The position numbers were made by a program, and so were the translations under genes. The notes beneath the pieces were generated by a model that saw nothing but the letters and a program-made list of their open reading frames with translations, was not told the DNA's origin and did not search any database. A DNA stretch of 64,000 nt from Herbaspirillum aquaticum (GTDB taxonomy: Bacteria > Pseudomonadota > Gammaproteobacteria > Burkholderiales > Burkholderiaceae_D): assembly GCF_002213425.1 (NCBI RefSeq), contig NZ_NJGV01000009.1, forward strand, positions 124,001 through 188,000, in the 5' to 3' direction. Below are positions 47,368-54,338 of the stretch, piece by piece. Each line of letters begins with the position of its first letter. Position 1 is the stretch's first letter.

Positions 47368-47790
47368 TCAGTAGGGGGTGGCCCTGAACTTCCCCCGCAA
47401 CCACTTCACCGGCGCACCAATGACCGGCAACTTCTGCCACAGCTCTTCAGCCGCATCCCAGTAATCGCGATGCTCGGTGACCAGCCCCGCTGCATCGAAG
47501 CGGAAATGCGTGGCCCCGAGCACGGTGTAGAAACGTCCCTTGAGACGAAACTCGAAACGCCAGGTAGCGAAGGCCTGCTGCCCCTGCCCCATGCGCTCCA
47601 GGATCACGAAGCGCGGATCTTCGGTGGTCTCGAACATGTGCGCAAAGATGGCGCGGATGGAACGCAGGCCCTTGATGTCGTTGAAGGGATCCTTGAACAG
47701 GGCCTCTTGTGAATAAAATTCACCAATCCGTTCCAGGCTGCCAGGGTCCAGCGCGCCATACCAGTCCAGCAAGCGGTCAAGATGCTGCAT
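47368..47790 (-). CDS. NTF2/SnoaL-like protein of the lipid operon
   Basis: 140 residues of the cone-shaped NTF2 fold (LDWYGALDPGSLERIGEFYSQEALFKDPFNDIKG; FRFDAAGLVTEHRDYWDAAEELW). No catalytic role can be assigned; in related clusters such a protein always accompanies the SDR gene. ATG at 47788-47790 starts 2 nt after the SDR stop, so it is translationally coupled. Last gene of the six-gene operon. Confidence 0.88.
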   Translation of the reverse strand: MQHLDRLLDWYGALDPGSLERIGEFYSQEALFKDPFNDIKGLRSIRAIFAHMFETTEDPRFVILERMGQGQQAFATWRFEFRLKGRFYTVLGATHFRFDAAGLVTEHRDYWDAAEELWQKLPVIGAPVKWLRGKFRATPY

Positions 47791-47792
47791 GG

Positions 47793-48653
47793 TCAGCTCA
47801 GCATGAAGCGCTGGAACAGCATGAAGCGTAGCCGGAACGGCAGCAGCCGCAGGATCTTCAACCAAGCCGTGAAGCGCCGCGGGAAGTGGATCTCGAAGCG
47901 GCCTTCGGAGATCCCGCGCCAGATCGCGGTGGCCGCCTGCTGCGGCGTCTGGATGGCCGGCATGGGAAAGTCGTTCTTGTCGGTCAGGTCGGTCTTCACG
48001 AAGCCCGGATTGATCAGGTACACGTTCAATCCCTTGGGCCGCAAATCGCTATAAAGAATTTCCGCAAGATTGATCAATGCCGCCTTGCCGGGACCATACA
48101 CGGTCGCCCCCGGCAGCCCCACATAACCGGCCACGCTGGCCACCAGCGCAATGCCGCCGCTGCCACGCGCCAGCATGTCGGGCAGCGCCGCACCGAGTGC
48201 CGAATAGACGCTGGCGACGTTGGTGCGCAAGGTATGTTCGGCTTCGTCTTCCTGGACTTCCCAGGTGCGCTCGGGGCGATACTTGGCCGCACAGAACACC
48301 AGCAGGTCGATGCCGCCGAAGGCTTCCACGATGCGGGCATGCTGGTCGCGCCAGGCATCGTGGCAGAGCACATCCAGTGGTGCGATGAAGGCATTCTTGT
48401 GGGCCGCCGCCACCTCTTGCAGCACGTCGGCACGGCGCGCCGACAAGGCCACGCGGGCACCCGCCTGCAGCGCCTGGCGCGCCAGCTCGGCACCGATGCC
48501 GCTGGAGGCACCGACCAGCCAGATGCGCAGGCCACGCAGGTCACTGACCGGTTGGTTCATCGGACCAAACAACACGGCCGGGCGAGAAATCGGGACGCGC
48601 TCGTCGGCGGTGCCGGCGGCCTCCTTGGCCAGGGGCTTGGACTGGGTATTCAT
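47793..48653 (-). CDS. SDR oxidoreductase of the lipid operon
   Basis: 286 residues with a 40-residue N-terminal extension, then IWLVGASSGIGAELARQAL (cofactor), VFCAAKYRPE, catalytic Ser in VASVAGYVG and YGPGK. The C-terminal stretch (ISEGRFEIHFPRRFTAWLKILRLLPFRLRFMLFQRFM) is basic and hydrophobic, suggesting membrane association, as expected for lipid substrates. Strong AAGGAGGGCGT site; its ATG overlaps the DUF3833 stop (ATGA). Confidence 0.9.
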   Translation of the reverse strand: MNTQSKPLAKEAAGTADERVPISRPAVLFGPMNQPVSDLRGLRIWLVGASSGIGAELARQALQAGARVALSARRADVLQEVAAAHKNAFIAPLDVLCHDAWRDQHARIVEAFGGIDLLVFCAAKYRPERTWEVQEDEAEHTLRTNVASVYSALGAALPDMLARGSGGIALVASVAGYVGLPGATVYGPGKAALINLAEILYSDLRPKGLNVYLINPGFVKTDLTDKNDFPMPAIQTPQQAATAIWRGISEGRFEIHFPRRFTAWLKILRLLPFRLRFMLFQRFMLS

Positions 48654-49219
48654 ACGCCCTCCTTGCGGAAGAACAGCGTGACCTGGCCCACTTCCACACC
48701 GAACTTGCTCATGCTGGTGCGGTTGATGAGGGTACGTTCATCCATCTGGTACATCCAGTCATCCATCTGGACTTCGTATTGCTTGTCATTGACCGGCAGC
48801 AGCAGCGTGTAATTCCAGTGCAGCGCATTGCCGGCGGTCTGGCCGATGGCCTCGCCGATGACATCGCCGGCACGGCCGCGCCAGCTGTTGTCGCCCTGGC
48901 GTACCAGGGTCCAGACGCGTGTCTGGGTTTCGCCATCGTCATAGCGGAATCGTTCGTCCAGGGTCAGCGTATTGCCCTCCACGGTACCGGTCACGACCAC
49001 ATGGAAGCGTCGTGCCACTTCGCCACCGCGCTTCTGGAACATGCCCCAGGCTTCGGTGCGCCCCTTGAAGAACACCGCCGGATCGAACACCGGCGTCTTG
49101 CTGGCGTAGTCCGACAATTTCTGCGAGGCACAGCCGCCCAGTGCCAGCGCCAGCAGCGCCAGCACGATTCCCTTCCACAGGCGCGCGGGCAGGCCCGTAC
49201 GCATCAGTTTGGCATCCAT
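48650..49219 (-). CDS. DUF3833 lipoprotein
   Basis: 189 residues. Lipoprotein signal (VLALLALALGGCAS, lipid Cys about residue 31), then a beta-rich DUF3833 domain (FFKGRTEAWGMFQKRGGEVARRFHV; WNYTLLLPVNDKQYEVQMDDWMYQMDERTLINR). Function unknown; the family travels with CFA-like methyltransferases. AAGGAGTGAGTC precedes the ATG; 3 nt from the methyltransferase stop. Confidence 0.9.
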   Translation of the reverse strand: MDAKLMRTGLPARLWKGIVLALLALALGGCASQKLSDYASKTPVFDPAVFFKGRTEAWGMFQKRGGEVARRFHVVVTGTVEGNTLTLDERFRYDDGETQTRVWTLVRQGDNSWRGRAGDVIGEAIGQTAGNALHWNYTLLLPVNDKQYEVQMDDWMYQMDERTLINRTSMSKFGVEVGQVTLFFRKEGV

Positions 49220-49222
49220 GAC

Positions 49223-50434
49223 TCACTCCTTGTGCAAGAGGAATTGCACGACATCGGTCTGGCCTTCATCGAAGCCCACTTCGCAGAACACGTAATACAG
49301 CTGCCACAGGCGGCGGAAGCGCTCATCGAAACCTTGCGCGGCGATGGTCTCGCGCTGGGCCAGGAAAGCGTCATTCCAGCGGCGCAGGGTTTCGGCGTAA
49401 TCACGGCCGAAATGGAAACGGTCGCGCGTGGCCAGCCCGGCACGCTGGGCGCAGCGCGAGAAGCGCTCATGGCTGGGCAGCATGCCGCCGGGGAAAATGA
49501 ATTCACGAATGAAGTCGGCACTGTCGCGATAGCGTTCGAACACGGCTTCATCGATGGTGATCGACTGGATCAGGGCGTGGCCACCGGGTTTCAGGCGCGC
49601 CGAGACCGTATCGAAATACGTTTGCCAGAAGCGCTCGCCGACGGCTTCGAACATCTCGATGGACACGATGGCATCGTATTGCCCGTCCAGATCGCGGTAG
49701 TCGCACAGTTCCAGATGGGCCAGATGATCGAGCTGCTGGTGGCGCATGCGCTCCTGGCCGAAGGCCAGTTGCGCCGGCGAGATCGTCACGCCATGCACGC
49801 GGATGCCCAGGCGCGCCGCATGTTCGGCAAAGCCGCCCCAGCCGCAGCCGATTTCCAGCACGCGGTCGCCGGCACGCAGGCCGAGCTGGTCGACGATGCG
49901 CTGGTACTTGGCGGCCTGTGCCGAGGCCAGGCTCTGGCAGGGTTCGGTGAAAATGGCCGACGAATAGGTCATCGTCGGGTCCAGCCACAGGCGATAGAAA
50001 TCGTTGCCCAGGTCGTAGTGCGCATGGATATTGCGGCGGCTGCCGCTGCGCGTGTTGGAGCGCAGCAGGTGGCGCAGGCGATACCACAGCGAGGCCAGGC
50101 GTCCGCCTTCGACCGCGCTGGAGAGCATCGCGCGGTTGCGCATGGCCAGGCGCAGCAGCGCGGCCAGGTCGGGCGTCTCCACCCAGCCATTGCCGTAGGC
50201 TTCACCGAAGCCGATGTCGCCGGCACGCAGGATGGCACCGCAGGCACGCCAGTCGAGGATGCGCAGTTGCGCGCTGGGCGGCTGGCGCAGGTCGCCGAAG
50301 GTCAGCGTGGTGCCATGCGGCGTGATCAGTTCAAGATGGCCGTGATTGAGGCGTTCCAGCATCGCCAGGAACAGGCGGGCCGAAATCGGGCCGGCACGGC
50401 GGCCGGTAGTCTGCAGTGCGGGGCTGTTGTTCAC
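49223..50434 (-). CDS. CFA-synthase-like SAM-dependent fatty-acyl methyltransferase
   Basis: 403 residues. SAM-binding motif VLEIGCGWGGFAEHAARLG near residue 185, GVTISPAQLAFGQERM and the acyl-binding C-terminal half of cyclopropane fatty acid synthases (FIFPGGMLPSHERF; YYVFCEVGF). Compared with E. coli Cfa, Glu239 and Tyr317 positions are kept but Cys139 is Ser (MTYSSAIF) and His266 is Gln (LIQSITI), so ring closure is doubtful; a C-methylating role as in UfaM or UfaA1-type enzymes is more likely. Starts with GTG (50432-50434) after AGGAAACCCTATC, overlapping the DUF1365 stop by 4 nt. Confidence 0.88.
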   Translation of the reverse strand: MNNSPALQTTGRRAGPISARLFLAMLERLNHGHLELITPHGTTLTFGDLRQPPSAQLRILDWRACGAILRAGDIGFGEAYGNGWVETPDLAALLRLAMRNRAMLSSAVEGGRLASLWYRLRHLLRSNTRSGSRRNIHAHYDLGNDFYRLWLDPTMTYSSAIFTEPCQSLASAQAAKYQRIVDQLGLRAGDRVLEIGCGWGGFAEHAARLGIRVHGVTISPAQLAFGQERMRHQQLDHLAHLELCDYRDLDGQYDAIVSIEMFEAVGERFWQTYFDTVSARLKPGGHALIQSITIDEAVFERYRDSADFIREFIFPGGMLPSHERFSRCAQRAGLATRDRFHFGRDYAETLRRWNDAFLAQRETIAAQGFDERFRRLWQLYYVFCEVGFDEGQTDVVQFLLHKE

Positions 50435-51285
50435 GATAGGGTTTCCTTTCCAGAAGAAGGTCCTGTGGCGGCGACGCGCTCGGGCTTGCTGAACCAGGGC
50501 ACGCGCTTGCGCCACAACAGCAAGGCCTGCCAGTGGATACGGGCGACCACACCCAGGGTCAGCAGCGGCTGGGCACACAGCGCGCCGAAGGCCGTGGCCG
50601 CGGTCAGGGGATGCAGGTGGCCGCCCACCGAGGTGCGCATCAGGGGTTGCAAGCCCTGCGCGACTTCCGACGGGTGGCCGTGGTCGTAATAATCGATGCC
50701 GACGAAGGCGGTGTTGCCGCCAGCCTCCGCACGCCGTGCCTGGTCGCGGAAGCGGAAACGATAGAAACCGCGTACTTCGCAGAAGGGCGAGACGTGCATC
50801 AGCTTGTTGCACACCAGCCGCGTGTGCTCGTCGATGGCGCCCTCATCCGGCGCCGAGAGCAAATAGTGCTGGGTCTCGCCAAAGGTGTTGTTGACCTCCG
50901 CCAGTACCGCACGCAGCTGGCCCGCGCCGTCATGGCACAGGAAGAAACTGACCGGATTGAAGACGAAGCCGAACAGGCGCGGAAAGGTCTGCAGCCAGAT
51001 GGCACCGTCATGCGGCAGGCCCGCCTGTTGCAGGTGGCCACGTACCCAGGCAGCCAGGTCGCTGCCATCGCGCGGACCATAGTCGCGTGTACGCACGCAC
51101 ATCAGGCGGCGGCGATCCACCCCGAACCAGGCGTTGCCGGCTTGATGGAGGCGCGCAAGATCGAGGCGCACGCAGAACACCGGATAGACGAACTTGTGCA
51201 GCACCGGACGCAGGCGCTGGTGCATCACCTGCCCGCTCAACAACAGCGCGGGCGCGTCGGTGCGGGCGGTCGGCGACGTGTTCAT
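50431..51285 (-). CDS. DUF1365 protein
   Basis: 284 residues. DUF1365 family: LLSGQVMHQRLRPVLHKFVYPVFCVRLDL start, RLFGFVFNPVSFFLCHD, VNNTFGETQHYLL and KLMHVSPFCEVRGFYRFRF. Unknown function; consistently next to the FAD oxidoreductase and CFA-like gene in proteobacteria and needed or suspected for unusual lipid synthesis. The ATG overlaps the upstream stop (ATGA). Confidence 0.92.
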   Translation of the reverse strand: MNTSPTARTDAPALLLSGQVMHQRLRPVLHKFVYPVFCVRLDLARLHQAGNAWFGVDRRRLMCVRTRDYGPRDGSDLAAWVRGHLQQAGLPHDGAIWLQTFPRLFGFVFNPVSFFLCHDGAGQLRAVLAEVNNTFGETQHYLLSAPDEGAIDEHTRLVCNKLMHVSPFCEVRGFYRFRFRDQARRAEAGGNTAFVGIDYYDHGHPSEVAQGLQPLMRTSVGGHLHPLTAATAFGALCAQPLLTLGVVARIHWQALLLWRKRVPWFSKPERVAATGPSSGKETLS

Positions 51286-52592
51286 AGCGCGGCCCAATGC
51301 GGCGTCACGCCGAAGTCCTGGATGACACGCAAGGCCGACTTCAGGCCATCTTCATGGAAACCGTAACCGGTCCACGCACCGGCGAACCATGCACGGTGCT
51401 TGCCCTGGATCTCCGGCAGGCGGCGCTGGGCGTCGATGGCGGGCTGGTCAAACACCGGATGCTCGTAGTCGAAACGTCCCATCACGGTAGCCGGATTGGG
51501 CGACTGCGGCGGATTCAAGGTGAGGACGATGTCGGTCTTGCAGGGCAAGTCCTGCAGGCGGTTGAGCCAATAGCTCACGCACACGGCGCGGCTGCCGTCG
51601 CTGTGGCGCGAACCGAGGTAATTCCAGGCCGACCAGACCTTGTCCAGGTGCGGCATGAGCGAAACATCGCTGTGCAGCCAGGCGGTATTGGCCTGGTAAC
51701 GCACGGCCGAGAGCACCTGATGTTCTTCGATGGTGGCGTCTTGCAGCAGGGCCAGGGTCTGCGGTGCGTGGGTGGCGAAGACCACGGCATCGAACTGTTC
51801 TTCGCGCGGCTCGGCGCCGCCGCTGCGCACCAGCACTCCCTGCTCGTTGCGGGTGACACTGGTGAGGCGGCTGCCCAGGCGGACATCGTCGAGGGTGGCG
51901 GCGATGCGGCGCACGTACTCACGCGAACCGCCGCGCACCGTGCGCCAGCGCGGCCGGTTGTTGACCTGCAGCAGGCCGTGGTTGATGCAGAAGCGCAGGA
52001 AGGTCGCTGCCGGGAAATCGAGGATGTCCGAGGGCGAACTGGACCAGATCGCCGCCGCCATCGGGATCAGGTAGGCATCCCCGAAGAGGACGCCATAGCC
52101 GCCCTCCTCCAGCAAATGGCGCAAGCTGATCGGGCGCCCCTCACAGGCCGCCAGGTTGGCATGGGCCGCACGGTTGAAACGCAGGATGTCGCGCAGCATC
52201 CCCAGGAAGGCGGGTTGCAGCAAGCGCTTGCGCTGGGCGAAAACGGTATCGAGGTTGGTGCCGGCCCATTCGAAGCTGCCTTCATCCATCGACACCCCGA
52301 AAGACATGTCGGTATCGTAGGTATCGACCTTCAGTTCCTCGAACAGCGCAATCAGGTTGGGATAGGTCCAGTCGTTGAAGACCAGGAAACCGGTATCGAC
52401 CGGAAACGGCACGCCCTCCGGCGCGATGTCCACCGTATTGGCATGGCCGCCCAGCGTGGGCGCAGACTCGAACAGCACCACCTGGTGCTTGCGTGCCAGC
52501 AGGTAGGCGCTGGCCAGCCCGGAAATGCCGGCGCCGATGACGGCGATGCGCTGTTGGCTGCCCTGCCCGTTGGCTGCTGCGTTTGGATTCAT
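51282..52592 (-). CDS. FAD-dependent amine-oxidase-like oxidoreductase (fatty-acyl desaturase/oxidase candidate)
   Basis: 436 residues. FAD-binding GAGISGLASAYLLARKHQVVLFESAPTLGGHANT at the N-terminus, covering the dinucleotide motif and the GG doublet, PVDTGFLVFN, and the C-terminal FAD clamp WFAGAWTGYGFHEDGLKSALRV. Relatives act as flavin-dependent lipid oxidoreductases; in the furan fatty acid pathway of Rhodobacter a related flavoprotein desaturates methyl-fatty acyl chains. First gene of the operon, 226 nt from the divergent TetR gene. Ribosome binding site weak. Confidence 0.9.
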   Translation of the reverse strand: MNPNAAANGQGSQQRIAVIGAGISGLASAYLLARKHQVVLFESAPTLGGHANTVDIAPEGVPFPVDTGFLVFNDWTYPNLIALFEELKVDTYDTDMSFGVSMDEGSFEWAGTNLDTVFAQRKRLLQPAFLGMLRDILRFNRAAHANLAACEGRPISLRHLLEEGGYGVLFGDAYLIPMAAAIWSSSPSDILDFPAATFLRFCINHGLLQVNNRPRWRTVRGGSREYVRRIAATLDDVRLGSRLTSVTRNEQGVLVRSGGAEPREEQFDAVVFATHAPQTLALLQDATIEEHQVLSAVRYQANTAWLHSDVSLMPHLDKVWSAWNYLGSRHSDGSRAVCVSYWLNRLQDLPCKTDIVLTLNPPQSPNPATVMGRFDYEHPVFDQPAIDAQRRLPEIQGKHRAWFAGAWTGYGFHEDGLKSALRVIQDFGVTPHWAAL

Positions 52593-52771
52593 GAAAACTT
52601 GCCCGCCTCTGTCTTTGTTATTGAAGTTCTGCCGTTGCCAGTCCTTGGGAATGTTCTCCCGCCCTGCTGGCCCGTGCTGCGTTTGGTGACCCGGGGCGGC
52701 GCTTGCTGTGGGGCTTTTTGGCCACCGGCGCCGCTTATTTGCTTCTCATCCTTGATTTAGGTGCTAAGATT

Positions 52772-52819
52772 ACTACCAAATAAAAATAAAATCTACTAAT
52801 TAGTAACTTAAACTACCAA
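52772..52819. promoter_or_regulatory. Candidate TetR operator region
   Basis: Perfect 12-bp palindrome TACTAATTAGTA (52794-52805) flanked by direct repeats ACTACCAA at 52772-52779 and 52812-52819, exactly 40 bp apart, in the AT-rich divergent promoter. Confidence 0.55.
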
Positions 52820-53427
52820 TGAGTATTTTCGGCAAACTGAGCTTCAAGGACCAAGCCTTCAAATTACGGGAGAACGCCATCCTGGATGCCGCCACGACCG
52901 TCCTGGGCAGCAAGGGCTATGACCTGATGACCATGGACGACGTGGCCGGTGCAGTGGGCATCTCCAAACCCAGCCTGTACAAGCATTTCAAGTCCAAGGA
53001 AGAGCTGGTTGGCGAGACCATGCTGCGTCTCATCGATGGCGCCATTGACCAGCTGGCGCAGCTGGAGGACATCGCCAGCCCGCGCGGCAAGCTCGAAGCG
53101 ATGCTGGAATGGGCGCTGCGGGTGCGCCTGGAAGGAGGTCTGCCCTTCCTGCCCTCCACCAGCGCGCATGTGCGCGAGATGCTCATGCGCAACGTGAAAT
53201 ACGTCATGCGTGTGCTCAAGCTCAACGGGCAACTGGAAAAGCTGGTGAAGGAGGCGCAGAAGAATGGCGAGCTCGATGCCGCCCTGCCCAGTGATGTGGT
53301 GTTGTACAGCTACTACGCACGCACCTGTGACCCGGCGGTGGATTACCTGCAGAAGTTCAGCAAGATGAACAATGAAGAAATCGTGAAACACATGTTGCAC
53401 GTGGCCTTCAACGGCTTCACGAAGTAA
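52819..53427 (+). CDS. TetR-family transcriptional regulator
   Basis: 202 residues. N-terminal HTH (AILDAATTVLGSKGYDLMTMDDVAGAVGISKPSLYKHFKSKEEL, about residues 20-63) and an all-helical ligand domain. Divergent from the lipid operon, likely its repressor and its own. No Shine-Dalgarno precedes the ATG, so a leaderless or weakly translated mRNA is possible. Clusters of this kind elsewhere often carry an ECF sigma factor with ChrR; none is seen here. Confidence 0.9.
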   Translation: MSIFGKLSFKDQAFKLRENAILDAATTVLGSKGYDLMTMDDVAGAVGISKPSLYKHFKSKEELVGETMLRLIDGAIDQLAQLEDIASPRGKLEAMLEWALRVRLEGGLPFLPSTSAHVREMLMRNVKYVMRVLKLNGQLEKLVKEAQKNGELDAALPSDVVLYSYYARTCDPAVDYLQKFSKMNNEEIVKHMLHVAFNGFTK

Positions 53428-53471: not shown

Positions 53472-54338
53472 TTACAGACCGTAGCAGCGCACCGCAGTCG
53501 TCCCCCACAGCTGCTCCTGCTCGGCCGCCGACAGCCGCGTGGCCGCCCACTCGCGGACCACGCCCGCCACCTTGGCATAGGAAGCGGCCAGCAGGCATAC
53601 CGGCCAGTCCGATCCAAACATCAGGCGTTGCGGGCCGAAGGCTTCCAGCGCCGTGTCCAGGCACAGGGCGATATTGTCGTAATCCTTCTGCCGCAATCCG
53701 CGCAACCAGTCCGCCTCGGTGACCAGTCCCGACAGCTTGCAGGCCACATGCGGCATGGCGGCCAAGGCGCGCAACTGGCGTTTCCATTCATTGAAAGAAG
53801 CTTCACTGCGCCCGAAGTCAGCCAGGGCCGGCTTGCCCAGGTGATCCAGCACCAGCCAGTGGGCGTCATGGCGGGCACAGAAGGCCTGCACCTCGGCCAT
53901 CTGCCTGGCATGGACCAGCACGTCATAGACCAGCCCCTGCTGCTGCAGCCACTTGATGCCGGCATTGAAGGCCGGCGCCTCCAGGAAGGCGGTGACGTCG
54001 GCTTCGTCCTGGACCTGGTGGCGAAAGCCCACCAGCTTGTCGCGTCCCCATTGGGCCACATTGGCCGCCAGGTGCGGCGAGGACAGGTCTTCCCAGCCCA
54101 CCACCCCGGCAATGCGGCGATCGGCCCGGGCCAGGTCCAGCAGGAAACCGGTCTCCTCGCGCCCGGCGCGGGCCTGCACGGCGATCGACGCATGCAGCCC
54201 TTCAGCATCGAGCACCGGATGCAGCTGTCCCGGCAGGCGATCACAGGCCAGCAATTCCATGCCCTTTCCGATCCAGGGATAGTCGTCGGCGCGATAGCGC
54301 CAAAAGTGCTGATGGGCGTCGATACGGAGGGGTTTCAT
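53472..54338 (-). CDS. L-fucono-lactonase, COG3618 amidohydrolase
   Basis: 288 residues. Amidohydrolase barrel: metal motif DAHQHFW at the N-terminus, VVGWEDL, LDHLGKPAL and FGSDWPV with the conserved Asp. COG3618 members next to fucose genes hydrolyse L-fucono-1,5-lactone to L-fuconate, the step between fucose dehydrogenase and FucD. Located after the ABC binding-protein gene on the same strand with a gap carrying terminator-like and regulatory sequence, so it may have its own promoter. Confidence 0.88.
   Translation of the reverse strand: MKPLRIDAHQHFWRYRADDYPWIGKGMELLACDRLPGQLHPVLDAEGLHASIAVQARAGREETGFLLDLARADRRIAGVVGWEDLSSPHLAANVAQWGRDKLVGFRHQVQDEADVTAFLEAPAFNAGIKWLQQQGLVYDVLVHARQMAEVQAFCARHDAHWLVLDHLGKPALADFGRSEASFNEWKRQLRALAAMPHVACKLSGLVTEADWLRGLRQKDYDNIALCLDTALEAFGPQRLMFGSDWPVCLLAASYAKVAGVVREWAATRLSAAEQEQLWGTTAVRCYGL

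Follow-up and report, generated by a model that had tools for sequence, protein, structure and literature searches.

Furan fatty acids are membrane lipids tied to singlet-oxygen protection. In Rhodobacter sphaeroides, three proteins together suffice for formation of the 9M5 furan fatty acid, namely UfaM, a member of the CMAS family, the flavin protein UfaD (RSP1091) and the DUF1365 protein UfaO (RSP1090), with RPA2569 (M), RPA2571 (D) and RPA2570 (O) as their equivalents in Rhodopseudomonas palustris (PMC7380195). The Rhodobacter and Rhodopseudomonas genes (RSP1091-1087 and RSP2144; RPA2571-2569) belong to RpoE-ChrR (ECF11) systems, in which an ECF sigma factor is paired with a zinc anti-sigma factor, and in Rhodobacter the pathway responds to singlet oxygen and is elevated when chrR is mutated. 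In Pseudomonas, the genes for UfaM, PhrB, FolE and CryB are light-induced under LitR-type regulators (PMC9758184). Earlier work thus links furan fatty acid genes to RpoE-ChrR or LitR; in the present case they appear to be handed to a TetR-family regulator, together with photolyases.

The window analysed is a 64 kb stretch of a Herbaspirillum genome that is 100% complete. It contains the following genes:

47368-47790, minus strand: SnoaL/NTF2-like protein, the operon's final gene (PF12680)
47793-48653, minus strand: short-chain dehydrogenase, SDR (PF00106), in a position kept in relatives
48650-49219, minus strand: DUF3833 lipoprotein (PF12915, 236.5 bits; lipobox LGGC)
49223-50434, minus strand: ufaM-like SAM-dependent fatty acyl methyltransferase, CMAS family (PF02353, 276.7 bits; GTG start)
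50431-51285, minus strand: ufaO-like DUF1365 protein, predicted O2-dependent furan-forming step (PF07103, 248.9 bits)
51282-52592, minus strand: ufaD-like FAD oxidoreductase, predicted to be the acyl desaturase in making furan fatty acids (Pfam Amino_oxidase/NAD_binding_8)
52819-53427, plus strand: divergent TetR-family regulator (PF00440 TetR_N, 59.9 bits)

All six tightly packed minus-strand genes and the TetR gene of the original prediction are present and assigned to Pfam families, and its three overlapping junctions are those between ufaD and ufaO, ufaO and ufaM, and DUF3833 and SDR, each of 4 bp. A 3-bp gap separates ufaM from the DUF3833 gene, and by sequence reading the SnoaL/NTF2-like gene starts with the ATG at 47790, 2 bp past the SDR stop. 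Comparison of the cluster across the family, as had been proposed, revealed the same gene order in most of 80 family genomes, a recurrence that argues against a chance arrangement. DUF1365 is encoded by a single gene in a genome-wide search of the source genome. DUF2878 is absent from the operon itself and, among the loci examined, was seen only in gamma-type clusters. On the other side of tetR, an L-fucono-1,5-lactonase gene adjoins it on the opposite strand (window 53472-54338; 494 bits, above the NCBIfam cut-off) and displays no sign of regulon membership.

The assignment to furan-type lipid chemistry is supported by the gene content, as the UfaD, UfaO and UfaM families form a complete set whose D-O-M order equals that of RPA2571-2570-2569. 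The protein at the ufaD position shares 42-47% identity over 417-429 aa with its counterparts in alphaproteobacterial D-O(-M) loci, and UfaD, UfaO and UfaM share 45-47%, 33-37% and 43-49% identity, respectively, with D-O-M loci of other classes (L284, L285, L288, L299). The CMAS family is common to CFA synthases and the source genome harbors a second, stronger CMAS gene elsewhere, which could mean that the window protein produces cyclopropane or 10-methyl fatty acids, with no furan coming from the operon. We consider this improbable, given the complete UfaD and UfaO complement and the scores of the window protein, which fall far under the NCBIfam CFA synthase cut-offs (262 vs 600 and 255 vs 400 bits). 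These low scores, along with a separate and stronger CMAS gene, make a furan fatty acid the likely product of the operon. In the proposed pathway, UfaM would methylate an 18:1 chain of membrane phospholipids at its double bond, UfaD would desaturate the product, and UfaO would insert oxygen and thereby close the ring of a methyl-furan fatty acid.

The RpoE-ChrR loci have homologues of ufaD, ufaO and ufaM in common with the window, and Rhodobacter-like loci also share DUF3833, SDR and an MFS gene, the last of which is located at a second locus in Herbaspirillum. They differ in the regulator, where Herbaspirillum has a TetR protein with tandem palindromes. A genome-wide search of the source genome did not find ChrR (best E 0.74), and none of 195 genomes of the family contains a ChrR reaching the curated cut-off; weak matches in the family (best 42 bits vs a cut-off of 124.5) mostly cover the cupin part only and were not counted. 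The original prediction placed TetR in the stead of RpoE-ChrR, naming an RpoE/ChrR pair elsewhere as the finding that would speak against it; our search returned no such pair, and TetR lies beside ufaD. Likewise, no LitR-like MerR-B12 regulator was detected in the source genome or in sampled congeners at 1e-20.

DUF1365 occurs in 114 of the 195 family genomes, with the slot beside ufaD occupied by a close TetR in 27, by a divergent TetR of ~45% identity in 6, by MerR-B12 in 42 and by neither in 39. Close TetR and MerR never stand together beside the operon in these genomes, and TetR adjoins the operon in 27 of the 28 with a close TetR. Five TetR genomes additionally hold an unlinked MerR-B12 regulator, and control could be shared there. 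In several loci of other classes, it is ECF and ChrR genes that stand divergently in this slot: both lie beside ufaD in L282, confirmed by Pfam, while L299 combines a sigma factor identified by Pfam with a ChrR identified by motif, and ECF/ChrR were recognized by motif in L283 and L288. A tree of concatenated D, O and M sequences unites 26 TetR operons, including that of the window, in one clade (support 0.99), with a second group of four TetR operons placed separately. Together, the census and the tree point to shared enzymes and an exchanged regulator: the slot beside ufaD was swapped and the enzymes were kept. The predicted regulator swap is hence correct and general, not a local oddity. 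Within Betaproteobacteria, TetR-ufa operons range over Herbaspirillum, Duganella, Undibacterium, Cupriavidus, Chromobacterium and others.

The AT-rich operator region noticed between ufaD and tetR contains a specific, conserved palindromic operator, as predicted from the following boxes (no strand assigned):

52772-52787: weak third operator-like box on the ufaD side, inferred (PWM 2.3 bits; same 20-bp register)
52792-52807: predicted operator box 1, TCTACTAATTAGTAAC (PWM 26.5 bits, best in the window; conserved in same- and other-genus genomes)
52812-52827: predicted operator box 2, ACTACCAATGAGTATT, over the tetR start codon (PWM 22.3 bits; 20 bp from box 1)

Across close TetR loci, the tetR-ufaD gap carries a palindrome of consensus GCTACTAATTAGTAGC, usually repeated 20-21 bp apart. 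In most of these loci none of 50 dinucleotide shuffles matched it; L059 and L060, where this did not hold, have misplaced start calls. Boxes 1 and 2 are the top two PWM matches of the window, the next reaching 3.9 bits. A box is situated near the tetR start in 72 of 80 named loci, usually at -25/-26 and/or -5, the latter being the position of box 2, which recurs in many of them. In 0.37 Mb of TetR loci, the PWM finds 38 sites above 20 bits and 29 tandem pairs; the loci carrying other regulators, 1.1 Mb in all, have none of either. The gap operator was recovered in the same-genus genomes searched and in 18 of 18 other-genus genomes searched; a pattern search of eight same-genus genomes yielded 35 matches vs 2 for the reversed pattern, palindromic sites being counted twice. 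Of the 79 close relatives of this TetR that could be assessed in Betaproteobacteria, 78 adjoin ufaD. With the palindrome conserved as well, the link of TetR to the operon amounts to more than proximity.

These operators also bear on the possibility that an ECF-ChrR or LitR-type regulator elsewhere controls the operon and that TetR merely tunes itself. Homologous operons are so controlled in other bacteria, with ECF and ChrR directly beside ufaD in L282, but searches of the source genome found neither a ChrR above E 0.7 nor, at 1e-20, a MerR-B12 regulator, and the operators are common to distant loci. TGATC is absent from the ufaD-tetR gap as well, in a scan that is weak by itself, since the motif as written matched only 2 of 10 other-class loci, ChrR-linked ones included. 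We regard control from elsewhere as very improbable. A scan for a sigma-70 promoter consensus in the gap returned none.

With TetR taken as the regulator of the operon, the operator leads to further genes. A second site in the source genome (G000 C1:21324), composed of two boxes 21 bp apart, directly precedes a Chalcone_3-MFS-DPRP set, and the same site precedes this set in four relatives (G059, G026, G101, G116). In most other genera, the Chalcone_3 and MFS genes separate ufaM from DUF3833, which suggests that a part of the ufa operon was split off and kept its operator. The DPRP protein of the C1 operon has four cysteines at 365/453/456/469, spaced 88/3/13, and thus resembles PhrB, with cysteines at 350/438/441/454 (PMC3204975), so that it looks like an FeS-type bacterial photolyase/cryptochrome. 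It shares Pfam DPRP and the four-Cys spacing with the FeS-BCP photolyases Agrobacterium PhrB and R. sphaeroides CryB (PMC3204975); unlike theirs, the gene of this protein is linked to TetR boxes. The gene set, the predicted operator and the putative membership of the C1 operon in the regulon are well supported by computation.

A CPD photolyase gene of the source genome (C38) is preceded by GCTACTGGTTGGTAGC (14.2 bits), and its ortholog in Herbaspirillum AP02 (G101) by GCTACCAATCAGTAGC at the corresponding place (22.5 bits). One-mismatch matches to the operator pattern in the source genome occur at the level of the reversed-pattern control, and we kept a match only where the boxes were in tandem or an ortholog supported it. 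Given this background and a score of only 14.2 bits, the membership of the CPD photolyase rests on position and ortholog, and the gene probably belongs to the TetR regulon. In Pseudoduganella guangdongensis (G155), boxes precede a photolyase gene, an FeS-type DPRP gene and a TspO-FolE-BLUF set, folE being found among box-marked genes only in Pseudoduganella; in some genera, a photolyase gene directly follows tetR or the operon. Several pattern matches in relatives made no sense in context and were set aside (L192, L193, L195, L183, L185, L188, and L191/L194 in a prepilin-peptidase-like region). Tandem boxes 20 bp apart were also observed in the source genome at C25:444617 (L179:4617-4652), before an ORF of 107-111 aa lacking a Pfam match and positioned upstream of an ArsR-family gene; this ORF is a possible further regulon member.

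The LitR/PplR/PmlR regulon of Pseudomonas has similar targets, comprising ufaM with an FAD oxidoreductase and an SDR, phrB, cryB and folE (PMC9758184). This match with light-induced genes suggests that the TetR regulon resembles that light response. The regulators differ, as Pseudomonas relies, according to the same source, on a MerR-type LitR and a LOV photoreceptor, whereas the source genome yielded no LitR-type MerR-B12 gene. Judging by the shared operators, the genes would be co-regulated in a TetR regulon that works like the LitR/CarH regulon without being a member of it.

A transfer of control to a small ligand is not supported as originally stated, because the regulon targets argue that light damage remains the stimulus: since the regulon includes photolyases, and in one relative also FolE, TspO and a BLUF protein, the stimulus is likely still light or photo-oxidation. 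An AlphaFold2 model displays a normal TetR fold with a helical C-terminal domain (mean pLDDT 90.1). The top Foldseek matches are fatty-acid- or acyl-CoA-responsive TetRs (FadR, AibR), which favors a metabolite signal, but at 15-22% identity. In comparison with B. subtilis FadR, M. tuberculosis FasR and AibR, the window protein has a like fold (TM about 0.65 to FadR), other targets and a CDP motif of its own; its scores stay below the curated FadR and FasR equivalog cut-offs (25 of 200 and 38 of 330 bits, respectively). An oxidised lipid or a similar ligand is possible. TetR might even sense a fatty acid, acyl-CoA or oxidised lipid in the service of membrane-lipid homeostasis and not of light stress, in line with its closest folds and with a lipid operon as main target; the generic nature of the fold matches and the photolyases of the regulon, joined in one relative by BLUF, FolE and TspO, make this rather unlikely.

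The CDP motif (Y-x-R-x-C-D-P) contains Cys170, the sole cysteine of the window TetR, which does not vary among 52 aligned relatives or the 45%-identical TetRs and is modelled at a break between two predicted helices. This invariance renders direct redox sensing a candidate equal to a ligand. TetR may accordingly be a one-cysteine redox switch that releases DNA upon modification of Cys170 by singlet oxygen, peroxide or an electrophile, a suggestion we put forward tentatively, as C-D-P invariance could also be structural. Both grades are shares within the signal question of the preferred explanation and not alternatives to it as a whole.

That explanation, a furan-lipid operon and photolyases under a dedicated TetR in a light or photo-oxidative response, is in our view probable. 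The divergent TetR would act as dedicated regulator of the ufa operon, binding as a dimer to tandem 16-bp palindromes 20-21 bp apart and repressing both tetR itself and the ufa promoter. Such boxes would also control the chalcone-isomerase-like/MFS/FeS-type photolyase operon and probably the CPD photolyase elsewhere in the genome. Under light or photo-oxidative stress, a signal, either Cys170 oxidation or binding of an oxidised acyl compound, would release TetR, and the singlet-oxygen-related protective lipid and the DNA photorepair enzymes would be made together. From these data we infer that TetR represses and does not activate, and likewise what condition induces the regulon and what the signal is. 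More speculatively, and with less than even confidence, the single-cysteine TetR can be envisaged as a third independent light/singlet-oxygen control system, sensing photo-oxidation directly and coordinating furan-lipid synthesis with two kinds of photorepair across Betaproteobacteria. Searches of open-access papers returned no prior report of a TetR with DUF1365, ufaO or photolyase, and a TetR-type regulator of a furan operon has apparently not been described before. This compact, testable regulator-operator system offers a way to find the signal that non-phototrophic bacteria read as light damage.

Related arrangements were observed beyond the close TetR group. TetRs of ~45% identity stand beside ufa operons with other palindromes (L071-L074, L075-L076), such as TTCGTGACTGATCAGTCACGAA in L071; L071-L074 lack the box and branch apart in the operon tree, and this group looks like a second, independent TetR takeover. 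Between the gene of a different TetR and that of the small membrane protein following it lies a single palindrome similar to the operator (L181, L190, L196, L197; 12-17 bits). It may serve this other TetR as its own operator, and we left it out of the regulon; an operator overlap between two TetR families is possible. Where neither TetR nor MerR-B12 lies close to the ufa operon (39 family genomes, e.g. L080-L083, L096-L098, L107 and L108), its neighbours in some cases are glutathione peroxidase or photolyase-like genes. Finally, an entire TetR-ufa operon is carried on the 689-kb plasmid p2 of Cupriavidus pinatubonensis (L251), and the operon may therefore be transferable.
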